From positions 1 to 63,890 of the IMG/VR virus record IMGVR_UViG_3300045131_001062: a stretch of DNA of 63,890 nucleotides; one strand, written 5' to 3'. Every line of letters starts with the position of its first letter. Position 1 is the first letter of the stretch. Below the pieces are notes generated by a model that did no database searches, was not told the DNA's origin, and saw nothing but the letters and a program-made list of their open reading frames with translations. A program made the translations under genes and the position numbers. Source of the stretch: a virus. Shown here in pieces: positions 515-63,890 of this stretch.

Positions 515-542
515 TTGACATGGAGTGTCTGTATCCTATAGA
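515..542 (+). promoter_or_regulatory. Early sigma70-like promoter
   Basis: TTGACA at 515-520 and TATAGA at 537-542 are separated by 16 bp, an almost consensus bacterial promoter. It lies about 50 bp before the first gene of the left operon. Its upstream flank resembles that of the promoter at 48069-48097, suggesting both are served by the host polymerase early in infection. Confidence 0.75.
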
Positions 543-2440: not shown

Positions 2441-2470
2441 TTCACAATTTACAGGGACAGCTTGTATAAG
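2441..2470 (+). promoter_or_regulatory. Conserved 30-bp promoter element, virion unit
   Basis: The sequence begins TTCACAATTTACA and ends CAGCTTGTATAAG. It matches the element at 34102-34131 at 28 of 30 positions and also occurs inverted at 33978-34007. Read as a promoter it has TTCACA, an 18-bp spacer and TATAAG. The whole spacer is conserved, which suggests recognition beyond a normal -35/-10 pair. It precedes the long rightward virion gene unit. Confidence 0.75.
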
Positions 2471-2532
2471 ATCGTAGTGTAGCCAAAATGATTTAATCAT
2501 CGGTAGGATAATACAGAATCGGGACCCAAGTC

Positions 2533-3066
2533 ATGGACGGATTAATCGTAGCAAAAGAGGATTCGCCGACGCGCTGCCAGAGTGTGAGCAGCCGGCGTCA
2601 GTGTATCTATGAATCCGTCGCGGGTGGAACGGTCTGCTTGGCGCATGGCGGCGTACTGATTCAAAAGGCACAGGAACGTCAGGTCGTGCGTCAGTATCAA
2701 TTACGATTGTTCCAATCCCGCCTCAACGAAAAGGCCGATAGTCCGGGCCTAAAGACATTGCGGGACGAAATCGGGATTCTGCGGATCGTGCTTGAGGAAC
2801 TGCTCAACAAGTGCGAATTGCCCGTGGACATCATCATCCACGCCGGACGCATTGAATCACTGGCCCTCAAGATTGAAAAGCTCGTTTCCTCCTGTCACGC
2901 GATTGAAAAATCCAGTGGTAAGCTGCTGGATAAGAGCGCAATCCTCCAATTTGCGTCGGAGGTCGTTGACATCCTTAGCACTCACCTGTCAGACCTCCCG
3001 AACGGTAAGGACCTTCTCGAAACGATTAGTGGCGAAATCATCGCAGCAATTGATAAGAAAGAATAA
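2533..3066 (+). CDS. Cys/His-containing protein, possible small terminase, 177 aa
   Basis: This is the first gene of the virion unit. The N-terminus has a putative zinc-binding pattern (RCQ, RRQC, VCLAHGG within residues 14-41), followed by a helical, coiled-coil-like region and a C-terminal helical segment. Position, size and architecture recall proteins encoded ahead of large terminases in some phages, so a small-terminase or packaging role is possible. The large terminase, however, is more than 4 kb downstream. No decisive motif is seen. Confidence 0.75.
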   Translation: MDGLIVAKEDSPTRCQSVSSRRQCIYESVAGGTVCLAHGGVLIQKAQERQVVRQYQLRLFQSRLNEKADSPGLKTLRDEIGILRIVLEELLNKCELPVDIIIHAGRIESLALKIEKLVSSCHAIEKSSGKLLDKSAILQFASEVVDILSTHLSDLPNGKDLLETISGEIIAAIDKKE

Positions 3067-16244: not shown

Positions 16245-16885
16245 AGGGACACCGTTCGCACTACAACGGTCCTAGGGTAACTGCGCGCACGTATGCCGCC
16301 CTCAGTGCTTCTTGGGATCGTTGTTCCAAGGAAGCACTGAGGGCCATGTTTAATCTCATGAAGGATAAGCACGAGGATACTGGCATGTCCATTGCCTCAC
16401 TCGTGCCTATGGGTAAGTTGCTCCGCGTAGGCGGCTTAATGTCTTATGGCGGCACCGGCGTCCTACCTAAATTCTATGACAGTGATTACTGGCCCACTGG
16501 TGGTTTCACTGGTAGTAAATCATTTTCTAGCGGTGAAAGAATTGGCAGGCAACAATTAGCTAGCGGTGAACATGCAATTACGTATGGTAGCCAGAAACGT
16601 GTAGTGTTAAAGTTCCGTGTTACCATTGGCGTGTTGCAGTGGGCCTTGCATGAAGCTAATATCTCAAGCCCACTTTGGGGAAAAACCCCTAAGTATGGTC
16701 GTAAGAGCCGCGCAAAGAGTGGTGGGTGGCAGCAGCCCTTTGAGTCCATTGACACAGGCAAGGAAGCTTTTCGTAAGCAGTTGACTATTGAGATGCGTAA
16801 ATTACGAAAGCTAATACCTGCTTTTGTGATTGAGGAAATTATGGGTGGAAGTATTTCCGAAGGGAGACCGACCGATGCAAAATGA
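16217..16885 (+). CDS. Minor tail / virion protein, 222 aa
   Basis: Basic, Ser/Gly/Lys-rich protein between the chaperones and the tape measure. Segments such as SHYNGPRVTARTYAALSASWDRCSKEAL suggest a helical N-terminus and a beta-rich middle (KRVVLKFRVTIGVLQWAL). GGWQQPFESIDTGKEAFRKQ precedes a C-terminal helix. Context implies a tail component, possibly a tail completion or tape-measure-associated protein. No family recognised. Confidence 0.7.
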   Translation: MSDFATVTVKGHRSHYNGPRVTARTYAALSASWDRCSKEALRAMFNLMKDKHEDTGMSIASLVPMGKLLRVGGLMSYGGTGVLPKFYDSDYWPTGGFTGSKSFSSGERIGRQQLASGEHAITYGSQKRVVLKFRVTIGVLQWALHEANISSPLWGKTPKYGRKSRAKSGGWQQPFESIDTGKEAFRKQLTIEMRKLRKLIPAFVIEEIMGGSISEGRPTDAK

Positions 16886-19800
16886 TTTAATCATGCTTCC
16901 CTTTGGACAGTTAACTTTCATTACCACCTTTGACGATGATACCGTCGAGTTCAAGGGCAATGCTTCCAGCCTTAATACTGCATTAGATGGCATCAATGCT
17001 AGGTATAAGGCATTAGACAAAGAACTGCAAACTGTAAATGCCTCGATTGCTAAGGCTAATCATGGCATGAGGGAGCAAGAACTTCAGACTAAGGCACTGG
17101 TCCTTAGTATGGAGAAACGATTTTTAGCTGAACAGGCGCTCGCCACTCTTACAGGAAAATCTGTTGGACGACCTCCTATACAGGTAGCTGGGCATATCTA
17201 CGCTGCTGAACAGATTGCTCGTACTGCCAAAGATTCTGCAGAATGGCTTGAGTACCTTAGTGCTAAAGGAACTAATGCCTATTCTAGATTATCTGGGGCC
17301 GCAGTTAGTGCCGCCGCCACAATAGCAGCAGCTCACCGAGATATTGCTAAGAGTTCTTCTGCCGCGACCAGTGGATACATGAGTGGACGCGGCTACGCAT
17401 CAGCTGCGGCCAGTACGATGGCTTCCGGCGAGCGTATTCGGGCACACCGCAGTACCGTTGAAGGTTGGGTGATTCCCGATGGTGGTGCCGAAAAGATAGA
17501 TAAGATTACCGAAAGCACCAAGAAAGCAACGACGGCCAGCAAAGATTTGCACATCAGTTGGAACTCTATTGTCCGGCTGTTCGGTGTGCAAGTAGCCCAC
17601 CGCTTTGCCGCAGACTTGATTTCTGGATTACGTGAAGGTGTTGTGCAGGCCACAGACTTGTCTATCAAGATTGCACAAATCCAAACTCTATCGCAGGATG
17701 CCATTGTCCCTACGCGTGAGTGGGCAGAAGGTCTGCGCAATGTTTCAGGCGCATTTGGATTTGATATACTCGATACGGCTACTGCTTCGTATGAAGCCCT
17801 GTCCAACCAGATGGGTAAGGGCATTGACGTTCTTGGATTCATGGAGGATGCATCCAAACTTGCTATAGCTACCACTGGCAAGCAGATGGATGCCGTTAAT
17901 CTTCTTTCCTCGGTGATGAACTCCTACAATCTGGAGACTACAACTGCCGCACAGATTAGTGCTGCCCTATTCAAAGCGCAGGACTTGGGTCGATTCGTAA
18001 TGGCTGACTATGGTAATACGATTGGTAACGTTACGGCCCTGGCCTCGCAGTTGGGCGTATCCTACCAAGAAGTATTTGCTTCCTTGGCCTTAATGACTAA
18101 GGCTGGTATTAAGCATAATGAAGCGTCTACGCAGTTGCGCGGAATTATGCTGAAAATGATTCAGCCCACAGAAGAGACTGTTAAGCTCTTCAAGGAACTG
18201 GGTTACGCCACGCCAGAAGCTGCCGTGAAGTCTTTGGGCCTGTTTGGCGCGTTGGACAAAATCATCCACGCCACCAACGGGTCCATTTCTGAACTGTACC
18301 AGTACATTAATCGTATCCGTGGTGCGAGCGGTATCGCCGTGTTCGCTGGTGACCTACATGAAGCACACAATACCTTAAAAGAAATAACGGAGTCTACCAA
18401 GGAATTCAGTACAGCCTTCCAACTCGTGTCTGACGCTGCTGGACAGAATCTTGTAGTGGAATTACAGAAACTTAAGCAGTATTTCATCGTTGACATTGGG
18501 CAGGATGCTGTTGAAACCTTAGCCACTACCGCTAAGTACGTAGACTTGGTTGCTGTGGCCGTTGCTACACTAACAGCACTTGTGCCTGTATTAGCTGGTG
18601 CCACAGTTGGATTAATCGTCCAGTTCATTAAGTTCAGTGGCGTTGCTAATGCATTCTTGGCAGCTAATCCATACGCTAGAGCTTTTGCTGCTATCTACCT
18701 TACCGCGCAGGTACTGTCAAAGTACATGAATAAGTACTATACGGACCAGTCTGCGTACTATGATAAGATGTTTGAAGAAGAGCGGCAGGCTATTAAGTTT
18801 TATAGGGAAGAAGCCGAGGCACGGGTGGCTGCATCCACCAGAATAACCAACGCCATTGAAAAGCAACTGAATGCTTCTGCTGCAAAGGCCAGGCAGTCCA
18901 TTCTAGCAGCTGAAAAGCTGTATGCTGGAATGACGCAGAAGATTTCAGATGACTTTACCCTTATGACCGAGGAAGTGGGTCAGGCTTTTGCCGCTCAGAC
19001 CGCTGCCATCAAGAAGGGCATCACTGAAACCGAAAATGCTCTTAAGGCTATTGATGATTTTAAAGTCAGTGGTCCTAAGGATGCTAAAGATTTCGCCTTC
19101 AAGTTTAATCTTGACAATCTCAAGACAGCCCAAGAAAAGATTGACTTCATTGCTAAGCGGATTAAGGAACTGCAAAGCGAATCCGCGTCGGCAGAACCAA
19201 AACGCCGCACGGAAATCTTTGGCGAAGTAGCTAGCCTTATCGAGGAACAGCATAAGTTACAGATGGGTGCCATTGAAGCGCGCAAGGAAGCTGAAAAGGC
19301 TCTTGGTGACGAAGCCATTTCCACAGCCACTAAGCGCCGTGAGTTGGTTCGGGAAATCGAAAAGAAGGAACTCGAACTTGGTAATATCAAGAAGAACGAG
19401 CATGGTAAGACAGAACGCCTAAAGTTGCAGTCTGTCAATGCGGAATTGGAAGACCTTCGATTCACGTTGTCACAGTTCGATGAAGAAGCTGCTCGTAAAG
19501 AATCTCAACTGCAAAAGGACCTGGCGGATATTGGCATCGTTAGGGATGCTCAGATTGACGCCCTGCGGGCAATTGAGCAGGTTCGGAAGGATATCGAAGC
19601 TCAGAATGCTGTGGATGCAGCAGCACTTGATGCCAAACTAATTGCAGATCAGCAGAAAGTGGCTTATGCTAAGCTGCAAGAAAAGGAACTCGACCTTAAA
19701 GAGAAGACCTTTACTACGTTAGACTCTGACTTAAGTAAGGCTATCTCCGAGGGCAAGACAGATGAATTAGTTACTATGCTTGAACAGCGTGAAGAAGCTT

Positions 19801-24754: not shown

Positions 24755-27700
24755 GCAGAACGATTCCAGCAAACACAGCCGTTGAACTGGCTAAGCGTTT
24801 AGGCACAGAACTGACGCCATTTGTTGAGATTGCCTGGCCTTCGGGCACTCAATACTACAGCTACACAACGCGTACCTTGGGTGGGCGTAACTACCAAGGC
24901 AAGTTGCTGGAATTTGAAACCGTGCAGTATCAGGGCAAGCAGACTGCTACTGCACAGGTTTCAAGCGTTTCGATTAAGTTAGACGATACGGATGACTCTT
25001 TGAGGATTCTGCTGAATCAACATAATGCTGAACACATTGTGGCTAAGGTGTACATCAACTACCCCGTATTGTCCTCAACTACGGACAATATCTTGTTGAT
25101 GATTGGTAAAGTAACTTCGGACATTGCGTGGTCAGAAGCTGATCGCGCACTGTCATTCACCATTGACACGTTCATTACTAACAATGAAGTGGGGTATGCC
25201 CCAGCTGCTGGAGACTTTACCGGACTATTAGAAGAAGCTATCGACCAACCCTGGCCCCTGTGTTTCGGCTCTGTCTTGAAGGTGCCGGCACAAAGAATCA
25301 TCGGGGCTATCGAAGGTACACTGGAAACGGCAGTCTATCCCGACACAACGGAGTTCTACGTCAGTGGTGGCGAGAAGTTTCCGCAGGGCGTGTATATTAC
25401 GGTGATGATTAGCGGCGTTACCATGCAAGGTGTGTTCAACGGAACTCACTTTACAGTAACCACCATGTCGATGCCGCAGTCCACGGGGCCATTTGGTATT
25501 GCTGCTCGCCCAGATAACAATGATAATCCCCTGCTGTTCTGGTTATCTAGTTACGTTAATCTTGAGAATAAGTTCTTCTTGGCTAGTATAGACGGGCAGC
25601 AGTATGTCAACTATTGCACAGACCAGAATGGATTAATGTGCACGATGTCCTCGGCTTTCTCTTCTAATGAGTTAGCCACTACGGGTGACACCATAGATGA
25701 AGCGTCTGTGGTTACCCTGAGTAAGTGGGACGTTGATAGTATAATCAATGTAGTTGACTTACCCTCTGGCAATAACTCGTGGGAAATCGCTGATGGTACT
25801 GTGGTTAAGTATTGGGCCGCGGCCGGAAGATTTGATGCTTACGTGGCTAATCTGTTACCGTCCACTGTATCTCAGGTTTTAGGCAAACGCACCTTTCATG
25901 GAATGTCCGTGTACACGGTAATTCCATATTCTTACTATACCATTGTTGATGGGACGGCACTCACCAACAAGAATTGCACGTTGATTAAGTTCGCTAAGCC
26001 ACTAAATGAATACGAGAATGAAGGGTGGTCGGGAGATATCTATGTATCTCTGCGATCGAGTCAGCCAAGCGGAGACGTAGCTCCGAAGTCAAATACTGCA
26101 AACATAATCAAGTGGTTACTTGACACTTACGCTACAGGTCTTACTACTGACTCAGCATCTTTCTCGGCTGTTGCTAGTAAGATAGCTAACTATCCCTCCA
26201 GCTTTGCTGTCTTTGATCAACAGAAGGTTATTCAGCTTTGCGAAGACATTGCGTGGCAGGCTCGCTGTGCTTTGCTGATCGAGAACGATGTCGTGTATCT
26301 GCGATATCTTTCGCAGAACCCAGTTAATCAAACGTACATTGAGGCTGCCAATACGCTTGAAAACAGTCTTGTTCTTGGCTTATCATCATTTGATTCAATC
26401 GTTACCAAGCTCACGGCTACGTGGAAGCATAACTATTCTGGCGATGAAGACTCCCAACATGAGTATGTATATCGCAACAATATAAGCACCTACGGACTCG
26501 TGGAGCAGTCTAGAGACTTCTTCATCTACAATATCGAAGGGTGCGTACAAGCATCAGCTAGGTTCTGGGGCTATAGGTACTCTCACATCTGGCGGACGGC
26601 TACCTTGCAGACACTGATTAGGAACGTGCATCTGCAAGTGTTTGATATAGCCGAACTCAATTACGCTGTTTTAGGTGACAATAGCATTAATGGTGTAATT
26701 GAACTAGCTACCATAAGCCCCAACACACCTAATCTGGACCTATCTATTGAAATAGCTGCCAACGCAGGTACTGTAGTTGAAAATCCATTGTACTGGTGGG
26801 TGCCTGGTATAGACCTGTCTACTATTAAAGATCCCCTTACCGGACTAATCCTTGAGGATGATACTCCCGTAATTGAGGATGATACCACGGCTTCGGGACT
26901 AGGTGATCCAAATAATCCGACAGACCGGGATAAGTATCTAGTCTGGATGTGCACGCCTAGTTACATCTATCAGGGGCAGGTTTCTACTTTTAGGTTAGGT
27001 CTCTACGATGCCGCCGTGCCACATACGCCGCCGATTAATCAATCTGTGTGGGTTGAGATTGAGACTATTGGGTATACTTCTGCTAGCACGGGTCGTGTTG
27101 CAGACATACCAAAACAGTATGTGCAGATTACTGCTGGACTGTCCTCGATCAACATAACTGTGCCTATGACGCATGGTATTCTGGATCACGCCCACTTCTT
27201 TGCGCGGGCAGTGTCACCCGACTTAGATGAGTTAGGACAAATACGGCTTAATCCAAGCAATGAACCGATCTACAGGCGCGTTACGGATATACGACCCTCG
27301 CGCACTGACGATATTCCAGTGCAACTTCCTGAGGATGGGAATCCTCTTGCGGGATTACTGGAGTTTGTAACAACCCCAACTACCATTGAGAGGCGCGAGA
27401 CTTTCAATGTTACCGTTAAGGGTAAGGAAGGATTAAAGGGTATATTTCACATTACTTCTAATACGGATGACAACGACGTATTAGGAGCCGAAGGTATTGA
27501 GCGGGAATTTACGGGAGGGTTGCAGGTTCTGCAGTTCAGCGTCGTGGGTGGCTCAGGATCAGATACCTTCACATTAACGGTAGCTGCTACACCTAAAGAG
27601 TGCGATCCCGATGAAGATGTCTATGTGGAATCCAACACGATTAACATATCTGAACCCGGTTATGAAATCCCATCGGGCGATCCGGATGATTCTAACTATA

Positions 27701-31030: not shown

Positions 31031-31215
31031 AGTATCTTCCCGTGTGACCATGCCCCAGCTTGTTGCAGTATCTTTATACCATCGTTTTGCGTCAAATGCA
31101 CACCAATGAATTCGTTATTAGGCAGCTTAATCATACATGGTGTTTCTGAGTCAAAAGCTTCGCGTATCAGCTTCTTCTCATCGGCAGACAATAGATTTAG
31201 AATGTCTTTGATCAT
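31027..31215 (-). CDS. Small hypothetical protein, 62 aa
   Basis: The ribosome site AAGGAGG is excellent. The protein has an N-terminal helix (DILNLLSADEKKLIREAF) and a beta C-terminal half (FIGVHLTQNDGIKIL). It overlaps both neighbours by four bases, consistent with coupled translation. Function unknown. Confidence 0.7.
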   Translation of the reverse strand: MIKDILNLLSADEKKLIREAFDSETPCMIKLPNNEFIGVHLTQNDGIKILQQAGAWSHGKIL

Positions 31216-33893
31216 ATTGTCGCCTCCTTACGGATAAGGTAGGCGTCTCGTAAGACATATTTGCCCTCATACTTATTAGTGTCTGCCTTCCAAGCTATGT
31301 TTCCTATATAGAATTGGGCGTCCGTTGTACTTCTACCTTTTGGGTACGCCGGTGGTAGGTCTCTACTAAATGCCTGCTTGGACCACTTATTGAACTCATT
31401 GGCGTCTAGTGTCTGCTGGAATCGTTCGAACAATTCGCCGAACTTAATCCTACAGCCATCCATGACCTTGCAATGTTCCTCAAGGAATAGTTCAACTGGC
31501 GTCTTATTGAGTTGAGCGGCAACCAACTTATCCTCAGTGGAAATCACTGGAACGTTTAGTCGATCGGCCGACTCAGGAACTTCCAGTTGCAGAACAGAAG
31601 CAATAAAGTCTGATGCTTCTTTCTCCAACATGGCAATTAGTTTCTTCTTCGGAATCAACTCTGCCAAGTCCAACGGATTAACGCGACACATAGTTATGCG
31701 CGTGTCACCCGGAAAGATTGGGCAGGCGGCGTGAGTATTGGCACAGTGAATCCAGTGTGTTGTGTTCTGAATGTGGTAGGGCGTGGCAAACTTAGGATGA
31801 ATCAATACTTCCCTAGATGTTACCCAGTCCTTAATCCGATTATACGCGAGTGCATTCTTGCGTAAATCAGTTTCTTCTACCACACATAGGACTGACCCTT
31901 CCAATTCCGCATTGAATCCACCCTGCGACACAAGTGCGGCGCTGGCTAACATGTAGCCACCATCCACTAGCAAGGACAGTGCCTCATGCAGAATTGATTT
32001 TCCGGTGTTCTGTTCGGGGCTGTATAGGAACAAGTAGGGTAGTGGGTCGTTAGGTGTCTGGAATAGCGAGGCTATCCAAATCTTAAGATAGTCGCCACCT
32101 GTAGCAATCCCATTAGCTTTAGCCCAAGGATTACTCTTAATCGCTTCGTTAAGACCTTCGCCACAGTGATTAAGAATCCTGTCCCATGTGGGGTGGGTTA
32201 GAGATTCTGTATTCACGGATGGCGTGAATCTAAATTGGGCTGCTCGCCGATTCCACTCCCGATCGCCAGGATACTCCGGTTGAAATGGTCGGCATACTAG
32301 CTTCCAACAGTTTGTGACAGACTGTCCAAGCACCATATTGACTTCATTAGTCTTTAATCCTATTGCACCTAAGGCCAACTTAACATGCGCTAATGGCTCC
32401 GCACGCCATGTATTGCTGGCTTTAATCATCCACCCACAGTCTTCGCCACCAGCCGTAACTAGATGACGCAGTAAATCATCGTAGTTGCCAACTTCGGATT
32501 CTACAGGATCAGAAGTCTGAGCATTGAATATCTTAGTCCATTCCTTCTTACTGGCCAACCAACCCGGCATGTCAGTCCCATTGTCAGACTCTTTTCGCTC
32601 GACGCTGACAACTAATCGACCATCCTTATGTTCGGATAGGCGGGCAGGTCGATTAATGAAGTTCTTACTAAAGGATACGTCTGCACCTAGCAGGGATGCA
32701 GCTTTCTGCATTACCTCAGCTTCTCGGAAGTTAAATCCAAACTTAGCATCCTCAATACCGCCACACGCACGGGCGGCAATCCGCAAGTCTGGTTTTTTAT
32801 TCAGGTAAGCACGTGTCCACCCACCACCGTCCTGCTCCCATGATTCATGCTCCTGTACGCCAGGTGTATACCTACGCACACTCCACACACCCCCACGTAT
32901 AGGGAAAGCAAAACAGTTTTGTTCCTGTGGATTAGTTACTGGACTTATCGTATCAAAGAATCCCTTGAGTGATAGGTCCGTGTAGGCACGCTTTAGATGT
33001 GCGGTGTGGGTTACGAGCATGTGATGATCTTGGTCCCACCACCACATCAAGTCATTTTCTTTGAGATAATCAATTACTTTCTTGTGGTCCTCATCTAATT
33101 CTGCTTTGGGACGCTGGCCACAAAGCTGCTCAAAGATGTCTGGATCAATCACGCCAGCAATGAACTGTGGAAGATTCTTGCGGCGCTTACCAGTAATCAC
33201 CTGTACGTGATCACGCCAGTTTTTAGGCACATCATACAGGGCATTACCTTTTTTAATCAGAGTAAGCCCGTCGGTGCCAGCCATCTTCCGATGCCACACC
33301 CACATGTTTCCACCGCAGGTATCCACGGTAGACTGGAAATCCTGTCCAACTAAAGCAGAAAGGTTGCCTAGAATCGCTCTAGCCAAAGCAGCGTGTTCGG
33401 TGTGGTTTGCAGTGGGAATATCATCCAGTTCCACGTACAAATGCAGTCCGCGGCCACTTGTTGATTTTCTAATCGTGATCCAGTCAATTTCAAAGGTCAG
33501 CCGTTTAATCTCTTCCAACTGCTCCACGCTCAGACCCTTCGCATGATTAACCATGGAATCAAAGTCGAAGGCAACCCACTTGCTTACACGATTCTTCCAG
33601 TCCCAACCTGTCATGCCTATGCCGGAGGCATGTGCGGCTAGGTCGAACTTCATGTCCGTATCTGTCCACTCAGGTTCGGTGGCTGCGTTCAGGGGTATAC
33701 GGAATGATTTCCACGTAGTGATTCCATCTGACCAAGCGGCCCACTTACGACCCTTATAATCTCCACTGACACGTTCTCCACCGTCTTGGTCTACGTTGAC
33801 TTGACACTCCATGTTGAGTGAATATAGATTTGCTAAATCAGCGTGTGTCACAGCACGCAGGTACTTAGCTATGGACTCTGATTTTGTTGGCAT
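31212..33893 (-). CDS. AEP primase-SF3-like helicase, 893 aa
   Basis: The N-terminal domain shows archaeo-eukaryotic primase features: VAFDFD (residues 107-112) and IRKSTSGRGLHLYVEL (141-156, the S-G-R-G-x-H motif). The C-terminal domain is a D5/SF3-like ATPase with Walker A SPEQNTGKS (625-633) and Walker B VLCVVEE (668-674), followed by a sensor region WIHCANTHAACP. The enzyme would prime and unwind at the origin. The chosen start (33893) has AAAGGAATAACG upstream. It is transcribed away from the 56-bp inverted promoter region. Confidence 0.9.
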   Translation of the reverse strand: MPTKSESIAKYLRAVTHADLANLYSLNMECQVNVDQDGGERVSGDYKGRKWAAWSDGITTWKSFRIPLNAATEPEWTDTDMKFDLAAHASGIGMTGWDWKNRVSKWVAFDFDSMVNHAKGLSVEQLEEIKRLTFEIDWITIRKSTSGRGLHLYVELDDIPTANHTEHAALARAILGNLSALVGQDFQSTVDTCGGNMWVWHRKMAGTDGLTLIKKGNALYDVPKNWRDHVQVITGKRRKNLPQFIAGVIDPDIFEQLCGQRPKAELDEDHKKVIDYLKENDLMWWWDQDHHMLVTHTAHLKRAYTDLSLKGFFDTISPVTNPQEQNCFAFPIRGGVWSVRRYTPGVQEHESWEQDGGGWTRAYLNKKPDLRIAARACGGIEDAKFGFNFREAEVMQKAASLLGADVSFSKNFINRPARLSEHKDGRLVVSVERKESDNGTDMPGWLASKKEWTKIFNAQTSDPVESEVGNYDDLLRHLVTAGGEDCGWMIKASNTWRAEPLAHVKLALGAIGLKTNEVNMVLGQSVTNCWKLVCRPFQPEYPGDREWNRRAAQFRFTPSVNTESLTHPTWDRILNHCGEGLNEAIKSNPWAKANGIATGGDYLKIWIASLFQTPNDPLPYLFLYSPEQNTGKSILHEALSLLVDGGYMLASAALVSQGGFNAELEGSVLCVVEETDLRKNALAYNRIKDWVTSREVLIHPKFATPYHIQNTTHWIHCANTHAACPIFPGDTRITMCRVNPLDLAELIPKKKLIAMLEKEASDFIASVLQLEVPESADRLNVPVISTEDKLVAAQLNKTPVELFLEEHCKVMDGCRIKFGELFERFQQTLDANEFNKWSKQAFSRDLPPAYPKGRSTTDAQFYIGNIAWKADTNKYEGKYVLRDAYLIRKEATI

Positions 33894-33977
33894 CGTTATT
33901 CCTTTAATCAACTCACCATACACTTACGTAAATCATTTTTGATTGGATTAAAAAATAATCAAATCACAATGTACACT

Positions 33978-34007
33978 CTTATACAAGCTGCCCGTGTAAA
34001 TTGTGAC
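33978..34007 (-). promoter_or_regulatory. Conserved 30-bp promoter element, leftward replication unit
   Basis: On the minus strand the sequence reads GTCACAATTTACA, then GGGCAGCTTGTATAAG, matching the elements at 2441 and 34102. It lies about 85 bp before the primase start and faces left. It is the left half of a larger inverted duplication. Confidence 0.78.
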
Positions 34008-34101
34008 CTAACTAACTAACAGCTTCTCAAACCCTTGTAATAGTTACTTCTTCTCTCTATACCTTATATATACATGGTTTGAGAGAGGGTTAGTTAGTGA
34101 G

Positions 34102-34131
34102 TTCACAATTTACAAGGGCAGCTTGTATAAG
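34102..34131 (+). promoter_or_regulatory. Conserved 30-bp promoter element, rightward replication unit
   Basis: TTCACA, an 18-bp spacer ending CAGCTTG, and TATAAG. It matches 28 of 30 bases at 2441-2470; downstream similarity continues (AAAATGATTT in both). It precedes the ParB-like gene at 34249 by about 118 bp. Confidence 0.78.
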
Positions 34132-34248
34132 TTTGGCTACGATTAGAGCGATGTCGAAAATGATTTGATTAAATGAAAGGCGGTGACAACCAAAGTAATC
34201 AGTTTGGCGGTATAAGTAAAAGCGATGGTTATCTACAAGGAAACGATC

Positions 34249-35223
34249 ATGAGCGAAGTCAAGTCGATTAAGTTGAGCGATATTCGTGAGAACCCGGTTG
34301 CGTTGCGCGCTGTCAATCGTGAGAGCGAAGCGTTTCAGGGGTTGGTGGCCTCGATGCGGTCGGTTGGATTCTTCGGTGCGATTACGGTGCGTCCGCAGAT
34401 CGACCCGGAGACGCAGGTTGCGTACTACGAAATCATTGACGGCCTGCATCGGTACTCGGCTGCCAAGGATCTGGGCATTGAGGAAATCAACGCTGAGATT
34501 CGTCCGCTGGATCAGGATCGCCTGCTGGAAATGCAGATCATGGCGAACTTCCACAAGGTGGACACGAAGCCCATGGATTATGCGCGTCAGCTGCGCCGCA
34601 TCCTGGGTCGCAATCCGATGATGACCGAGACGGATTTGGCGAATCGTCTGGGTTCCAGCGTGCAGTTCATTCAGAACCGTCTGGGTCTGAATAAGATCAA
34701 CAACCCCAAGATTATGGAGTTGGTTGATGCGGGCAAGATTCCTCTGTCGAACGCGTTCACGCTCACCAAGCTCCCCGAGTCGGAGATGGATGCGTGGGTT
34801 GAGCGCGCGATGACGCAGGGATTCCAAGAGTTCGGTCCGGCGGTTACGGCACGGGCTAAGGAACTCAAGGAAGCCAGCCGGGCGGGTAAGGATGCGGGCG
34901 CTCCGCAGTTCGCCCCGTCGTCTTGGCTGCGCAAGCTGAGCGAGATTAAGGAAGCCATTGAGACGCCGGCGTCGGTGTACTCTGGTGACCAGCCTGAGGG
35001 ATTCGCTGCGGCCTTGCAGTGGGTTCTGCATCTGGACGCGAAGTCGATTGAGGTCCAGAAGGCGGCGTTTGATCAGCGCCAAGCCGAGACGGAAGCGAAG
35101 AAGCTCAAGCAGGCCAAGGAGCGCGCTGAGAAGAAGATGGAGAAGGCCAAGCTGGCGCAGGCGGAAGCTGAGGAAGCTGCCGCGGCTCTGGAAGGCGAAG
35201 AGGCCGAAGTCGTCGAAGATTAA
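34249..35223 (+). CDS. ParB-like protein 2, highly expressed type, 324 aa
   Basis: An N-terminal ParB domain is visible: LSDIRENPVALR, EAFQGLVASMRSVGFFGAITVRP and YEIIDGLHRYSAAKDLG (residues 60-76). A helical DNA-binding region follows (ETDLANRLGSSVQFIQNRLGL, a helix-turn-helix pattern near 128-148). The C-terminus is a charged coiled coil ending in an acidic Glu/Ala tail. Codon use is G/C-ending and uniform, like the coat and tube genes, suggesting an abundant protein. Strong AAGGAAA ribosome site. It could organise, partition or protect phage DNA. Confidence 0.85.
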   Translation: MSEVKSIKLSDIRENPVALRAVNRESEAFQGLVASMRSVGFFGAITVRPQIDPETQVAYYEIIDGLHRYSAAKDLGIEEINAEIRPLDQDRLLEMQIMANFHKVDTKPMDYARQLRRILGRNPMMTETDLANRLGSSVQFIQNRLGLNKINNPKIMELVDAGKIPLSNAFTLTKLPESEMDAWVERAMTQGFQEFGPAVTARAKELKEASRAGKDAGAPQFAPSSWLRKLSEIKEAIETPASVYSGDQPEGFAAALQWVLHLDAKSIEVQKAAFDQRQAETEAKKLKQAKERAEKKMEKAKLAQAEAEEAAAALEGEEAEVVED

Positions 35224-36657: not shown

Positions 36658-38576
36658 ACACGTTCTTCACTGTTGATGGATACAAGCGGCCTGTTCAGTT
36701 AATCTATCGGGCTAATCGCATCTGGATTAACATCAAGTATAACAAGAAGGTGATTGCTTACATCAAGACCATGGAGCAGTCTAAATGGCATGGTTTTGAA
36801 GAGCCGCCTGTTAAGATGTGGTCGATCCTCAACTCACAGCGTAATGCTTTCCAACTGGATTTCATGCAGGGCAAGAATCCGTATGCTCCGTTTGAGGCCC
36901 AGCTCGACTACAATACGCTAGAGTTTAATCGTCCACTATACAGGCATCAGCGCGAGGGTGTGGCGCATGTCCTAAGTCGCCCGGCCTCAATTCTTGCTTG
37001 TGAGATGGGTACGGGTAAGACACTGATGGCCCTGGAATCAGCCGAACGCCATTTGTCACCTACTGATGTCCTGTGGTACATAGGTCCGCGGTCGGGTATC
37101 TATGCCGTTCAGCGCGACTTGGCCAAGTGGCGGGCTAAAGTTTTTCCGGAGCGTTATCTCACGTATGAGAAGCTTTCCAACATAATCAAGCAAGTTGGAA
37201 CAGACATCGAAGTGCCGAAGATGGTAATCTTCGATGAGAGCAGCAAGGTTAAGAATCCAACTGCCAATCGTACGCAAGCCTGTCTTACCTTGGCTAATCT
37301 GGTGCGGGAACATCACCCGGATGATTACAAGCTGGTGCTGATGAGCGGTACGCCTGCGCCTAAGAGTCCCGTGGATTGGTGGTCGCAGTGTGAGATAGCT
37401 TGCCCCGGATTCATCAAGGAAGGTAATCTTCCTAAGTTCAAGCGTCGGCTGTCCATCATTGAAGAGAAGGAATCTGCGGCGGGTGGTATGTATGCTTCGG
37501 TCGTGACTTGGTTGGATGATGAGAACAAGTGCGCTACCTGTGGCCAGCCCAAGGAACATATTAATCACGCGGAGTTAGTAGCGCAACTTGTTGGCGGTAC
37601 TGCTGGCCATCAGTTCGTTAAGTCAGCCAATGAAGTTGCAAAACTGTATCGCCGAATGCAGGGTTTGACGTTGGTTCGGTTCAAGAAGGACTGCCTTGAC
37701 CTCCCCGAGAAGATCTACGAAATCGTTGAGATTAAGCCAACCATCGAAATTCTACGCACTGCCAAGTTAATCAAGCAACAGTGTCCTACTGCGATTCAGG
37801 CGATCACGCTTCTGCGTGAATTGTCTGATGGTTTCCAGTATCAGCCCGAGAAGACTGGCATGGAAACTTGCTCACTCTGCAAGGGCGTTGGTACAATCGT
37901 TGACCTTGTGCCTCCAGATGATTACGATCCCAACCTCGACAACACTGGAGAGATTAAGTACGTCGAAAAGACCATCGACTGCCACAAGTGCGGTGGTGCT
38001 AAAGAGACGGCTGTGTTTCAGCGGGTTGTGGTTGAGAGCGACAGTTCGCCGAAGGATCAGTATCTAATCGACGACCTTGATGAGCATGAGGACGTTGGGC
38101 GTCTTGTGGTGTGGGGTGGATTCACGGGAACCATTGACAAGCTGGTCCGGCTTGCCAAGCAGCAGGGTTGGAATGTTCTTCAAGTAGACGGTCGTGGATT
38201 CCGTGCATCAACATACGACGATAAGGAAATCCCCACCAACATCGCGCTGGATGCTTTCGATGCCTCACACCCGGACTATGAATACCTGAAACAGCAGATC
38301 CCTAAGCTCTGTTTCATCGGAAGCCCGGAAGCCGGCGGTATGGCACTTAATCTTACGGGCAGTCCTACAGAAATCTTCTACTCGAATACGTTCCGTGGTG
38401 AAGCCCGTATGCAGGCTGAGGATCGTTTTCATCGTCCGGGTGCCGATAAGAATCGTGGTTGCACGATTAAAGACTATCTGCATCTGCCGGTGGATAGACT
38501 GATTCTAGAGAATCTCAAGAAGAAACGCCGGATGCAAGAAATAAGTATGGGAGAGTTAAATGAATATATTGATTGA
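36642..38576 (+). CDS. SNF2-like superfamily 2 helicase with zinc clusters, 644 aa
   Basis: Superfamily 2 motifs are in order: LYRHQREGV (Q-like, 99-107), MGTGKT (122-127, Walker A), VIFDESS (195-201, motif II), LMSGTPAPKSP (III), then the C-terminal domain VVWGGFTGTIDKLV, IGSPEAGGMALNLT (V) and EARMQAEDRFHRPG (VI). Between the two lobes lie two Cys-rich insertions: KCATCGQPKEHINH, and a DnaJ-like pair CSLCKGVG and CHKCGGAKE. These should bind zinc. The helicase probably acts in replication or recombination. It overlaps the preceding and following genes. Confidence 0.9.
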   Translation: MDTTVDTFFTVDGYKRPVQLIYRANRIWINIKYNKKVIAYIKTMEQSKWHGFEEPPVKMWSILNSQRNAFQLDFMQGKNPYAPFEAQLDYNTLEFNRPLYRHQREGVAHVLSRPASILACEMGTGKTLMALESAERHLSPTDVLWYIGPRSGIYAVQRDLAKWRAKVFPERYLTYEKLSNIIKQVGTDIEVPKMVIFDESSKVKNPTANRTQACLTLANLVREHHPDDYKLVLMSGTPAPKSPVDWWSQCEIACPGFIKEGNLPKFKRRLSIIEEKESAAGGMYASVVTWLDDENKCATCGQPKEHINHAELVAQLVGGTAGHQFVKSANEVAKLYRRMQGLTLVRFKKDCLDLPEKIYEIVEIKPTIEILRTAKLIKQQCPTAIQAITLLRELSDGFQYQPEKTGMETCSLCKGVGTIVDLVPPDDYDPNLDNTGEIKYVEKTIDCHKCGGAKETAVFQRVVVESDSSPKDQYLIDDLDEHEDVGRLVVWGGFTGTIDKLVRLAKQQGWNVLQVDGRGFRASTYDDKEIPTNIALDAFDASHPDYEYLKQQIPKLCFIGSPEAGGMALNLTGSPTEIFYSNTFRGEARMQAEDRFHRPGADKNRGCTIKDYLHLPVDRLILENLKKKRRMQEISMGELNEYID

Positions 38577-39423
38577 CGATATCCACATTGACGAAGAGTT
38601 CAATAGTCGTGGCGCTATTGCACCTATTGACGTTATTGATTTGCAGCGGGACATTGATGTGAATGGATTACTCCAACCCATCATCGTCTCGGAGTGCAAC
38701 TCCGAACAACAGAGGGCGTGGGGTAAGAAGTACAAACTAATCGCTGGGTTCCGGCGTCTGTTTTGCGTGCGGTCATTGAACCGCAAAGAAATTGAAGCCG
38801 TTGTCAAGCCGCCACTGTCGGACATTGCAGCGGCATCTATGAATCTGCGAGAGAACTTGCTGCGGTCTAATCTCAATATCTTGCAGGAAGCTAAGGCTAT
38901 TGCTCGTCTCCGTAATTTGGGAGTGAGTGAGACGGCTTGTGGTGCCGAAGTCGGTCAATCGCGTGGGTGGGCACAGATTCGTTTCATGCTGTTGTCCCTA
39001 CCTAAGGAAATGTATCCTGATGTGGTGGCCGGAATAATCACGCAGACTAACATTCGTGAACTGTACAGCATCATGCGTAAGGGCGGACCTAAGGCGGCGT
39101 TGGACTTTGCACGGGAAATGAAGTCTGCTAAGCAACGCGGCCTTAAGAATCACGAGATTGAGACTAAAGAAAAGAAGGCCAATGCCAAGCGCCACCGTAA
39201 GCGTCCAGAGATTTTCCTGATGCAAGAGCATGTGCGGGAAAACTTTGGTAATAACTTTGCCACTCGTTGTCTGGCCTGGGCTGCCGGTGAGATTAGTACC
39301 AGCGAGTTGGATGAGGATATCAAGAAGCTGTGCACGGACAAGGGACGGACGTTCGTGGAAATGAAGGAAGATTCTTTTGAGGACGATGAGTTTGTGGAAG
39401 AGGAAACTGAGACACCGGCTTAA
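38560..39423 (+). CDS. ParB-like protein 3, 287 aa
   Basis: Both ParB boxes are present: YKLIAGFRRLFCVRSL (residues 58-73) and MNLRENLLRSNLNILQEAKAI (94-114), so this is the most typical ParB of the three. A helix-turn-helix region follows (RNLGVSETACGAEVGQSRGW), then a basic stretch (KEKKANAKRHRKRPE) and an acidic C-terminus. GGGAGAG precedes the ATG, which overlaps the helicase stop region. Probably a DNA-binding or CTP-dependent clamp protein. Confidence 0.82.
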   Translation: MNILIDDIHIDEEFNSRGAIAPIDVIDLQRDIDVNGLLQPIIVSECNSEQQRAWGKKYKLIAGFRRLFCVRSLNRKEIEAVVKPPLSDIAAASMNLRENLLRSNLNILQEAKAIARLRNLGVSETACGAEVGQSRGWAQIRFMLLSLPKEMYPDVVAGIITQTNIRELYSIMRKGGPKAALDFAREMKSAKQRGLKNHEIETKEKKANAKRHRKRPEIFLMQEHVRENFGNNFATRCLAWAAGEISTSELDEDIKKLCTDKGRTFVEMKEDSFEDDEFVEEETETPA

Positions 39424-47464: not shown

Positions 47465-47958
47465 TGAAACACGTAGGTATATATTTAGACATTGCGAATC
47501 TTTTTTACTCCGCCCGCGCGAAGTATGGTGGAGCGTATAAGTTGGATTACGCAAAGTATATGACGTTTGTGCAGGATTTAGGCAACATCGTTACGGCAAG
47601 GGCGTACGGGTCACAGATGGATCACGAAGCTGATTCATTCATTGGTCGCTTGTCCGAGCTTGGGATCACGCCCATCTACGAAAAGACCAAAGCGATTAAA
47701 CTCCGTGATGGCACGGTCAAGCACAAGTTCTGCTGGAGCGTGGGCATTGCCGTGGAAGTAATCCGCGACATGCCGGGCATAGACCTTGTCGTGTTGGGTA
47801 GTGGCAATGGGGATATGATTCCACTAGTCAAATACCTGATGGAGAATCGCAAACAGGTATTAATCCTCGCGTGCAGTATAAGCAAAGACCTAGCGGCTAT
47901 TGAGGGACTTACGATTTGCGAAATCCCTAAGTCGATGTTTGAAGTGGGCCGTGGTTAA
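47464..47958 (+). CDS. NYN (PIN-like) domain protein, LabA/DUF88 type, 164 aa
   Basis: GIYLDIANLF (Asp9, Asn12) and the later DLVVLGSGNGDMIPLVKYL carry the acidic and Gly residues of the NYN metal-dependent RNase fold. The protein may cut RNA. It is the last gene of the second replication block; a hairpin and the early promoter follow. Confidence 0.8.
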   Translation: MKHVGIYLDIANLFYSARAKYGGAYKLDYAKYMTFVQDLGNIVTARAYGSQMDHEADSFIGRLSELGITPIYEKTKAIKLRDGTVKHKFCWSVGIAVEVIRDMPGIDLVVLGSGNGDMIPLVKYLMENRKQVLILACSISKDLAAIEGLTICEIPKSMFEVGRG

Positions 47959-48007
47959 TCAAATCAATATTTGGTTTTGCCTGATTCAGCAAAATCTGAT
48001 TTGATTA
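47956..48007. terminator. Large AT-rich imperfect hairpin between replication and early units
   Basis: TAATCAAATCA (47956-47966) is inverted as TGATTTGATTA (47997-48007). Inside, GGTTTTGC pairs with GCAAAATC (one wobble), leaving the loop CTGATTCA. The left arm overlaps the last codon of the NYN gene. It could end transcription from the left or bind a regulator before the early promoter. The stretch to 48203 has no gene. Confidence 0.6.
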
Positions 48008-48068
48008 CGTGCAGCAAGAAGTGTGCCAGTCCATGCTAAAATGCGAAAATAAAAGTCTGTAAATTGTG

Positions 48069-48097
48069 CTTGACAGGGCGCGGCTATTCCTTTATAG
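48069..48097 (+). promoter_or_regulatory. Strong early sigma70-like promoter
   Basis: TTGACA (48069-48074), 17 bp, TATAGT (48092-48097). Upstream (48026-48068) it shares with the left-end promoter the sequence TCCATGCTAAAA, a TGCG, an A/T-rich stretch and TGCTTGACA. It drives the large right-hand set of small genes. Confidence 0.85.
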
Positions 48098-48203
48098 TTG
48101 TGGCATGATAGCAGTGGAACAAGTGATGCAGCGAATCATGCAAAATGATTTGATTAGCTGTGTCATTGTTTGTAACACAACAATAAGTAATGGAGTTAAT
48201 CAC

Positions 48204-56637: not shown

Positions 56638-57306
56638 ATGAGTAAGCAAAAAGATCCGCGAACGATGACGCAAACAATCTTTCCGCCTATCAATGGTTGG
56701 AAGGAACACACGCTGTATCTGGTGGACGTTAGCATGAACGCTGGGAATCCAATGCACAAAGCGTTGTTCTATTCCGGCTTCTTACAAGATGGGTGGCCGT
56801 GTGGGTACAATGGTATAACTTCCATGATTCCCAGCAATGATGAAGGGCCACGTGAGATCCATAGCGTGTACTACATGAAGGTGATCAAGGAATTGTACAC
56901 CCATGATGCAACGCAGTGTCAGGGTCTGCCACCTAAGGCCACTGAGCTTCGGAAAGATCCATTGGCTGATCTTATTGATCAACGTATTCAAGCCCACATG
57001 ATTCCTTGGCTCAAGGGTGAGATCCGGCGGCAGTTTGATGCCATGCAGACAGGTGCCGCTATGGCCCGGACCTATCCTGCAGTGGATCAAAGCATCAACC
57101 AGTTCTTAAAGGTCACCTACCGTGGCCTTGATTACAAGATCGTAGACGCTAGGCAGCCACGCTACGGTGAATACTTCATTGTGGTTGGGACTTCTGCATT
57201 GTACAGGTGCGCTAACACTAATGGTACGGTAGTGTTTGCAACTAGCGGACCTGCCTTCAATACTACCATTAGCACTATGCTGATCGTCGAACCAATCAAA
57301 GGATGA
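56638..57306 (+). CDS. Hypothetical protein, 222 aa
   Basis: The start at 56638 is eight bases after AAGGAG; ATG at 56632 is nearer. N-terminal mixed fold (HTLYLVDVSMNAGNPMHKALFYSGFL, tyrosine rich), middle helical, C-terminal beta (GEYFIVVGTSALYRCA). No known family. Confidence 0.68.
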   Translation: MSKQKDPRTMTQTIFPPINGWKEHTLYLVDVSMNAGNPMHKALFYSGFLQDGWPCGYNGITSMIPSNDEGPREIHSVYYMKVIKELYTHDATQCQGLPPKATELRKDPLADLIDQRIQAHMIPWLKGEIRRQFDAMQTGAAMARTYPAVDQSINQFLKVTYRGLDYKIVDARQPRYGEYFIVVGTSALYRCANTNGTVVFATSGPAFNTTISTMLIVEPIKG

Positions 57307-57879: not shown

Positions 57880-58514
57880 AACTAACAGTCATTACACCAC
57901 ACCGCAGTCCTGAGAGGAAACCGTTTCTGGATTTCCTCAAGGACATGATGGCCCGACAAACACGCCAACCTGATCAATGGTTGATCGTAGACTACCCCGC
58001 TACAGATGACAACTGTGATCTAACGGCTAGGATTAAATTCGGTATGCAGCAGGCTATTGGGGATTACGTACTAATCATGGAGGATGATGATTGGTATAGT
58101 CCGCAGTACATCGAGACAATGGCTATTGCCTGTGGGCATGGGCGGGATATCGTTGGGGTACGTCCCAGTATGATGTATAATCTCAACTGTCGTCGGTATG
58201 TTGAGTACAAGCATCCCGGACGCAGTAGCCTATTCATGACGGCTATACGCCGGGAGTCCGTACTAACTAGGAGGGTTTGGCCTAACGACAGCGATCCTTT
58301 CTTGGACTTACACCTATGGAGAACATTGCAAAACGGGTATGTATTTGTACACGGCGACCCGTACTTAGCCGTGGGGATCAAGCATGGTCGTGGTAAGTGC
58401 GGCTCATCTCACGCAGAAAAGAGATTCACTAGAAACGACGCACAGTTGAGTTGGTTGATTTCGCAAATCGGTCGGGTGGACGTAGATCGGTATATGGGGA
58501 TCATTAGTAATTGA
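57876..58514 (+). CDS. Glycosyltransferase family 2-like (GT-A), 212 aa
   Basis: KLTVITPHRSPERKPFLDFLKDMMARQT and WLIVDYPATDD open a GT-A fold; YVLIMEDDDWYSP holds the acidic D-x-D type motif for metal and nucleotide-sugar. The C-terminal part has WRTLQNGYVFVHGDPYLAVG. It could add sugars to host surface, virion or DNA. Substrate unknown. Confidence 0.82.
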   Translation: MKLTVITPHRSPERKPFLDFLKDMMARQTRQPDQWLIVDYPATDDNCDLTARIKFGMQQAIGDYVLIMEDDDWYSPQYIETMAIACGHGRDIVGVRPSMMYNLNCRRYVEYKHPGRSSLFMTAIRRESVLTRRVWPNDSDPFLDLHLWRTLQNGYVFVHGDPYLAVGIKHGRGKCGSSHAEKRFTRNDAQLSWLISQIGRVDVDRYMGIISN

Positions 58515-58519
58515 ATACC

Positions 58520-59260
58520 ATGCAAAAGACTATAGAATCACTGATGCCCACCGCACGGAAGGCAGCCCTGCATTATGCACACTCACCTATGTTCAATGAG
58601 TTGCTAATGCTGGCATATGAAACCCTCGTCATTGTGATTAATGAGAAGGGAACTGATGGACATGAGAACCTTGAGGCGTACGTATTCCTCAAGATACGGG
58701 GCGAACTGAAAAACTACGTGTTTGGCAACGCTGTCGTAAGATGTCCGAACACACGGAAGATCGTTGCCGGAGACCCAACTAAGGAATCATTGGTGCCTAT
58801 GACCGTGGTCCCTAAGACGTGGCACAAACCCATCATTATATCGTTGGATGGGTGGGGTGCTAAGGGTGGGGCGGGTGGGACGTTGGAGATTGGTTGGACA
58901 CCACCTAAACAATATGATGAGTTCAGTATCATTGATGATCTACACCTAGAACCGTTGGATCGGGTGATAGTGATTAAAAGGTTGGAAGGATTCACACAGG
59001 AAGAGATAGCTCAGGAGTTGGAGGTTGATCATAGTACCATAACCAAACGTCTGAACAATATCAAGGAACTGTTGCGGAAGATTGGTATAGTTCCTGCTAC
59101 TGAGAAGCGTAGCGTGGGAAAGAAAGTATGCTCTATCTGTGAGCAGGAGAAGTCACTGGATGATTTCTTCGTTAGGACGCGCCACCCATTGAAGCACTTT
59201 GGGTTGTGCAAAGTATGTTTTAATCGTAAGAAGGAGCCGAATGATGCACCAAAGACTTGA
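58520..59260 (+). CDS. Sigma-70-like factor with C-terminal zinc finger, 246 aa
   Basis: The N-terminal helical half (ESLMPTARKAALHYAHSP, LLMLAYETLVIVIN, ENLEAYVFLKIRGELKNYV) resembles sigma region 2. RVIVIKRLEGFTQEEIAQELEVDHSTITKRLNNIKELLRK (around residues 153-192) is a region 4 helix-turn-helix. An extra C-terminal module CSICEQEKSLDDFFVRT...HFGLCKVC is a zinc finger of the HNH/McrA-neighbour type. TTG at 58511 is another possible start. It probably directs RNA polymerase to phage promoters such as the 30-bp elements; that link is inference. Confidence 0.8.
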   Translation: MQKTIESLMPTARKAALHYAHSPMFNELLMLAYETLVIVINEKGTDGHENLEAYVFLKIRGELKNYVFGNAVVRCPNTRKIVAGDPTKESLVPMTVVPKTWHKPIIISLDGWGAKGGAGGTLEIGWTPPKQYDEFSIIDDLHLEPLDRVIVIKRLEGFTQEEIAQELEVDHSTITKRLNNIKELLRKIGIVPATEKRSVGKKVCSICEQEKSLDDFFVRTRHPLKHFGLCKVCFNRKKEPNDAPKT

Positions 59261-63735: not shown

Positions 63736-63763
63736 TTTTAGGCGGGGTCTTAGGTGATTTTAT

Positions 63764-63890
63764 ACGCGCACGCGCACGCGCACGCGCACGCGCACGCGCA
63801 CGCGCACGCGCACGCGCACGCGCACGCGCACGCGCACGCGCACGCGCACGCGCACGCGCACGCGCACGCGCACGCGCACGCGCACGCGCA
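63764..63890. repeat. Right terminal (CGCGCA)n hexamer tract
   Basis: Twenty-one perfect CGCGCA units run to the last base, in the same orientation as those at the start. The exact shared overlap with the left end is 120 bases. The tract directly abuts the TTAGGT repeat region (GATTTTATA then ACGCGCA). Confidence 0.97.

Follow-up and report, generated by a model that had tools for sequence, protein, structure and literature searches.

What does a 56-bp inverted repeat do between the divergent primase and ParB-like genes of a phage? The question is raised by the genome of an uncultivated phage, IMGVR_UViG_3300045131_001062, which was analysed over the whole virus record of 63,890 bases (the window). 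An initial annotation had proposed that the two arms of the repeat, together with a third, distant copy, form a phage-specific promoter class heading the non-early transcription units, and that the centre may also be the replication origin.

A near-DNA search of phage records with the window returned no matches, and a search of phage records with the primase protein gave weak C-terminal matches only; among the annotated phage records that were searched, the lineage has no close relative. The primase was found in five genome contigs (L275-L279), labelled as three planctomycete MAGs, one Bacteroidetes and one Patescibacteria, labels which are a mere hint at the host because binning errors are possible. 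Both ends of the record consist of one CGCGCA hexamer repeat (1-125 and about 63760-63890), as if a circular or terminally repetitive genome had been broken in a simple repeat.

Three copies of one element at unit heads

The features of the junction and of the virion-unit head are as follows.

31212-33923, minus strand: primase/helicase (DUF5906, PHROG DNA primase)
33978-34033: left arm of the 56-bp inverted repeat
33978-34007, minus strand: left-arm element (GTCACA, 18 bp, TATAAG), predicted promoter into the primase/methylase/exonuclease unit
34034-34075: AT-rich centre containing CTATACCTTATATATAC, which is also present in the relative G001 in inverted orientation
34076-34131: right arm of the 56-bp inverted repeat
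34102-34131, plus strand: right-arm element (-35-like TTCACA, 18-bp spacer, -10-like TATAAG), predicted promoter into the ParB/replication unit
34225-35223, plus strand: ParB-like protein (ParB_N and HTH_ParB)
2441-2470, plus strand: third copy (TTCACA, 18 bp, TATAAG), predicted promoter into the virion unit, in the same place in G001
2533-3066, plus strand: virion-unit head gene

The arms are complementary at 49/56 positions (88%), with 42 nt between them, and share a 30-bp element whose third copy is identical to the right-arm element at 28/30 positions and ends 62 bp before the first virion gene. A genome scan confirmed these copies as first described: with up to three mismatches allowed, the element has exactly three matches in the window, and shuffled sequence gives 0.00. 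The copies stand before the primase unit, running leftward from 33923 to 29266, the ParB unit, running rightward from 34225, and the virion unit from 2533 on. The initial annotation had named equally good matches scattered inside genes as an observation that would count against its proposal; there were none, since the scan gives only the three unit-head copies. This is the phiEco32-like pattern of a low-copy conserved element confined to the heads of non-early units, with three copies, none of them in genes, and the same places used in G001. A second ParB-like gene (38560-39423) lies in the same unit as the first.

An intrinsic terminator or RNA hairpin was rejected as an explanation of the repeat. 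Each arm carries its -10-like box at its outer end, and transcription from either predicted start would therefore leave the stem, which lies upstream, untranscribed. Inspection by eye for MerR-like spacer dyads and for CII-like direct repeats around -35 found none that were consistent.

The same places are used in a close relative

The genome G001 (IMGVR_UViG_3300035670_000233) shares 77% protein identity with the window in ParB, 81% in the terminase and 75% in the primase. It has arms of 42 nt (93%) between primase and ParB, and a third copy at 57177-57206 on the minus strand, ahead of the virion head gene. Its version of the element reads TCACAwTTTACC and then GCGTGTATRGT; the upstream block TCACAATTTAC is common to both genomes, and the G001 spacer differs and is one base longer. 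The pattern TCACAATTTAC-N-GTATA had 38 matches in viral contigs; the motif is phage-specific, and these matches may be due to chance.

Conservation of the whole spacer, from which recognition more specific than that by host sigma70 had been proposed, is present in the window and is not general. The third copies of G001 and of a further relative, G014, are conserved in the upstream and extended -10 blocks but not in the middle of the spacer. The proposed specificity is weakened because the G001 virion copy keeps the two outer blocks and not the spacer middle, an observation that also points to conversion as one contributor to the arms' likeness. The full-spacer identity in the window may come partly from concerted evolution of the arms.

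The central TATATAAGGTATAG block (34057-34071 in the window, 24776-24790 in G001) lies in opposite orientation relative to the flanking genes in the two genomes, and an inversion of the centre between the arms is possible.

The layout is kept across the lineage and the sequence changes

A primase profile run against viral contigs found 246 relatives, of which the best 80 were kept, giving 62 distinct primase/ParB junctions. Inverted arms lie between primase and ParB in most of these 62, with an arm sequence that varies by phage, and a ParB-like ORF adjoins in nearly all. In most of the genomes tabulated, the best arm pair ends outward in a -10-like block. These blocks are TATAAT-like with a spacing of 17-19 bp in many relatives, and by our reading the -35-like boxes of other phages match TTGACA at 4-5 of 6 positions.

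As 360-bp segments around virion-head matches missed most cases, whole contigs were scanned with the junction instead. A copy of the arm upstream of the virion head gene, pointing into the virion unit, was found in the window, G001, G025, G035, G052 and G058; G014 has one where it would be expected, about 4.5 kb ahead of the terminase, like the window. Reversed-query controls gave no matches in 21 of 22 genomes and two in G065. The virion heads of G046, G049 and G050 were mapped and had no arm copy in the whole-contig scans; absence in other genomes is uninformative because several contigs are fragments.

Within the window, the arms are alike at 49/56 positions, and 38/70 columns are shared with G001. 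The arms of L045 agree at 57/64 and those of L047 at 46/55, compared with 44/74 and 30/64 between these two. By these alignments, arms are more alike within a phage than between close relatives, the pattern of concerted evolution, and the likeness could be kept either by conversion between the arms or by a shared reader. The layout of the putative promoter class is the rule in much of the lineage. The proposal that such a class heads three non-early units is therefore well supported by the three-place layout of G001, by the sharing between arms and virion unit in seven phages and by the turnover of the sequence.

Early promoters and a sigma-70-family protein

Three further features bear on which protein could read the element.

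515-542, plus strand: canonical early-type promoter sequence, TTGACA-16-TATAGA
48070-48098, plus strand: canonical main early promoter, TTGACA-17-TATAGT, flanked by TGATTTGATTA sites at 47956 (minus), 47997 (plus) and 48146 (plus)
58511-59260, plus strand: sigma-70-family protein of 249 aa in the early unit, candidate reader of the element, with a region-2-like N-terminus, a region-4 HTH at about 139-190 and a Cys-rich C-terminal tail

G001 has TTGACA-17-TATATT at the place that matches the early promoter of the window. In the window, CACAATTTAC occurs reversed at 48059-48068 (minus strand), adjoining the -35 of the canonical early promoter.

The region-4 HTH of the protein matches Pfam Sigma70_r4_2 at 26.6 bits (cut-off 25.7). 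For Sigma70_r2, the window protein alone has no match in Pfam, and it can be aligned at its N-terminus to region 2 of relatives whose own matches to this family lie around the Pfam cut-off (L245 just above, L241 and L239 just below). A profile of the aligned family matches solved sigma factors (1l0o at 5e-21; 8x6g, sigma-B, at 2e-14 over positions 7-202 of 209), and the match spans regions 2 and 4. An AlphaFold model is confident only in two separate domains (mean pLDDT 71.5, pTM 0.35); the PDB structures closest to it are ECF sigma factors, with weak matches (E about 5e-3).

Homologues of this protein are present in about 32 relatives (13/39 by sequence and 20/25 records by profile, with G018 in both); G058, whose contig may be incomplete, has a clear promoter triplet and no sigma match. 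Identity between the window and its relatives is 46% for sigma vs 75% for primase in G001, 14% vs 61% in G025 and 19% vs 62% in G022. The putative sigma factor diverges much faster than the primase, matching the turnover of the predicted promoters. Its recognition helix, DHST[IV]xKRL, is nearly identical in the window and G001, which share the TCACAATTTAC block at -35. A K-S-[HK]-x-W-I helix and TT[AG]GT[TG]-type blocks are shared by G025, G022 and G045, a correlation that was dropped as evidence; it is not independent because their primase identities of 70-76% show close kinship. Reading of the element by this protein is likely, and we infer that the three copies are probably phage-specific promoters for non-early units.

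Additional motifs around the elements

Two more motif classes accompany the arms. The inner GTHAGTHA motifs are found in 31/62 junctions vs 12.4 expected and point outward on both sides, and the TGATTTGATT motif is found in 31/62 vs 0.4 expected, mostly in the outer flanks. In the window, the sites are as follows.

34008-34020, minus strand: inner motif GTTAGTTAGTTAG (GTHAGTHA class)
34089-34101, plus strand: inner motif GTTAGTTAGTGAG (GTHAGTHA class)
33956-33966, minus strand: TGATTTGATTA site immediately downstream of the left promoter
34161-34171, plus strand: TGATTTGATTA site immediately downstream of the right promoter
2489-2499, plus strand: TGATTTAATCA, a palindromic variant, immediately downstream of the virion promoter
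47956-47966 (minus), 47997-48007 (plus), 48146-48156 (plus) and 16883-16893: further TGATTTGATTA/TGATTTAATCA sites

Each of the three elements thus has TGATTTGATTA or TGATTTAATCA immediately on its downstream side, and such sites also surround the main early promoter; the presence of the TGATTTGATT motif class at these four places is a new observation beyond the initial annotation. The further sites flank the main early promoter and lie at the start of an ORF reading MQNDLIM..., and a similar MQNDLI reading is found just before 48146. In G022, G045 and G052, inner motifs of the junction type also precede the sigma gene. Related junctions contain perfect palindromes, GTAAGTCACGTAATTACGTGACTTAC among them, and G022 and G045 have similar palindromes upstream of their sigma genes; GTNAGTNA palindromes are candidate ParB-binding sites.

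One or two further regulators probably bind the inner GTHAGTHA motifs and the outer TGATTTGATT motifs, and the ParB-like proteins encoded at 34225-35223 and 38560-39423 are candidates for operator-binding regulators.

Discussion

We favour, at somewhat better than even confidence, the reading that the 56-bp inverted repeat forms a palindromic hub of divergent promoters, and that the three copies of its element are switched on by an early phage sigma-70-family factor. The outer side of each arm would be a promoter with a phage-specific block around -35, an 18-19 bp spacer and a -10-like block; the two arms would drive outward into two replication units, and the third copy would drive the virion unit. 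Host-type TTGACA/TATAAT-like promoters would drive the early genes, one of them coding for the sigma-70-family factor, which would most likely redirect host RNA polymerase to the three copies, turning on replication and virion genes together. The layout is kept but the sequence differs by phage, probably because each phage has its own fast-changing sigma factor.

The strongest competitor, to which we give a real but clearly smaller chance, is that host sigma-70 uses the three copies as ordinary promoters with a poor -35 and that a phage DNA-binding protein activates them by reading the conserved block near -35. TTCACA-18-TATAAG is two mismatches from a sigma-70 promoter, and the -10 blocks, spacings and -35-like boxes of the relatives would suit this explanation as well. 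The reversed CACAATTTAC beside the early promoter is what would be expected of a protein-binding site rather than of a -35 box, although the reversed copy in G001 is imperfect (8/10). Against an activator, the sigma gene is lineage-wide, and no activator candidate that is equally conserved was identified.

It is unlikely that the junction is primarily a replication origin, with the arms and motifs as initiator sites and the promoters secondary. Its position beside the primase gene, the AT-rich TATATA centre and the iteron-like GTHAGTHA motifs would fit an origin, as would the repeats of TTATCCACT, a DnaA-box-like sequence, that are conspicuous in G017. The element recurs ahead of the virion unit, however, 31 kb away. 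DnaA-like boxes are found in some relatives only and were rejected as a general feature of the junction (4/62 vs 1.6 expected). A GC-skew switch at 34.05 kb, by which the proposed origin could have been recognised, was not found: the skew has positive values at 1-28 kb and at 34-63 kb and turns negative at the leftward genes alone, and it gives the origin no support because it follows the coding strand. With its AT-rich centre and its inner motifs, the junction may still hold an origin. The junction of G017 (L041 1130-1970) carries many TATCCACT repeats that look like DnaA boxes, and an outer inverted repeat of some 40 bp that is perfect.

Rather less probable again is that the palindromes are ParB-type (parS/KorB-like) sites and that the hub serves mainly in partition or global repression. 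The ParB-like ORF beside nearly all junctions and the perfect palindromes there and upstream of two sigma genes point in this direction, and there is a precedent in KorB of plasmid RK2, a ParB-family protein that represses at palindromic operators of promoters (PMC11790492). The hub resembles it in having a ParB-family protein with palindromes at promoters; binding by the phage ParB is a prediction. The 30-bp element of the window, on the other hand, is non-palindromic, oriented and ends in a -10-like block, and a role for ParB can coexist with promoters. A recent inverted duplication or recombination target with no regulatory role would suit the greater likeness of arms within than between phages and the inverted centre, but is very improbable given a layout kept over the lineage and a third copy at the virion unit.

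The divergent promoter hub that we favour has partial parallels in known phages. In SPO1 (gp28) and T4 (gp55), early genes are expressed with the host sigma factor and later classes with a phage sigma factor; these systems differ from the window in their many promoter copies and other -10/-35 geometry, and to our knowledge have no inverted pair at a primase/ParB junction. In the T7 group, RNA polymerase specificity and promoter sequence diverge together, a joint change like that proposed here, but in a single-subunit polymerase with no sigma factor. The closest published precedent is that of phiEco32 and phage 7-11, where, in the passages of the publication considered here, a phage sigma factor reads a small number of well-conserved phage promoters that precede the middle and structural units (PMC4331800). 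Like the window, as described there, they have a phage sigma gene, few conserved promoters and sigma-70 promoters for early genes. The promoters of these two phages are alike, whereas those of the present lineage differ from phage to phage, and these passages show no palindromic divergent hub (PMC4331800).

More speculatively, and with considerable doubt, the lineage, possibly of planctomycete phages, may share a fixed primase/ParB hub, in which private promoters are rewritten together with a fast-changing sigma factor and kept alike by concerted evolution. ParB-regulator and origin sites would also lie there, so that transcription, replication and partition could be switched at one point.

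Promoter and regulator predictions are now available for a phage lineage without a close annotated relative in the records searched. Some 30 sigma sequences, many of them from genomes that also yielded promoter copies, provide a large natural series of sigma/promoter pairs. As the layout is constant and the sequence varies, joint change of sigma region-4 specificity and promoter can be tested in this lineage.
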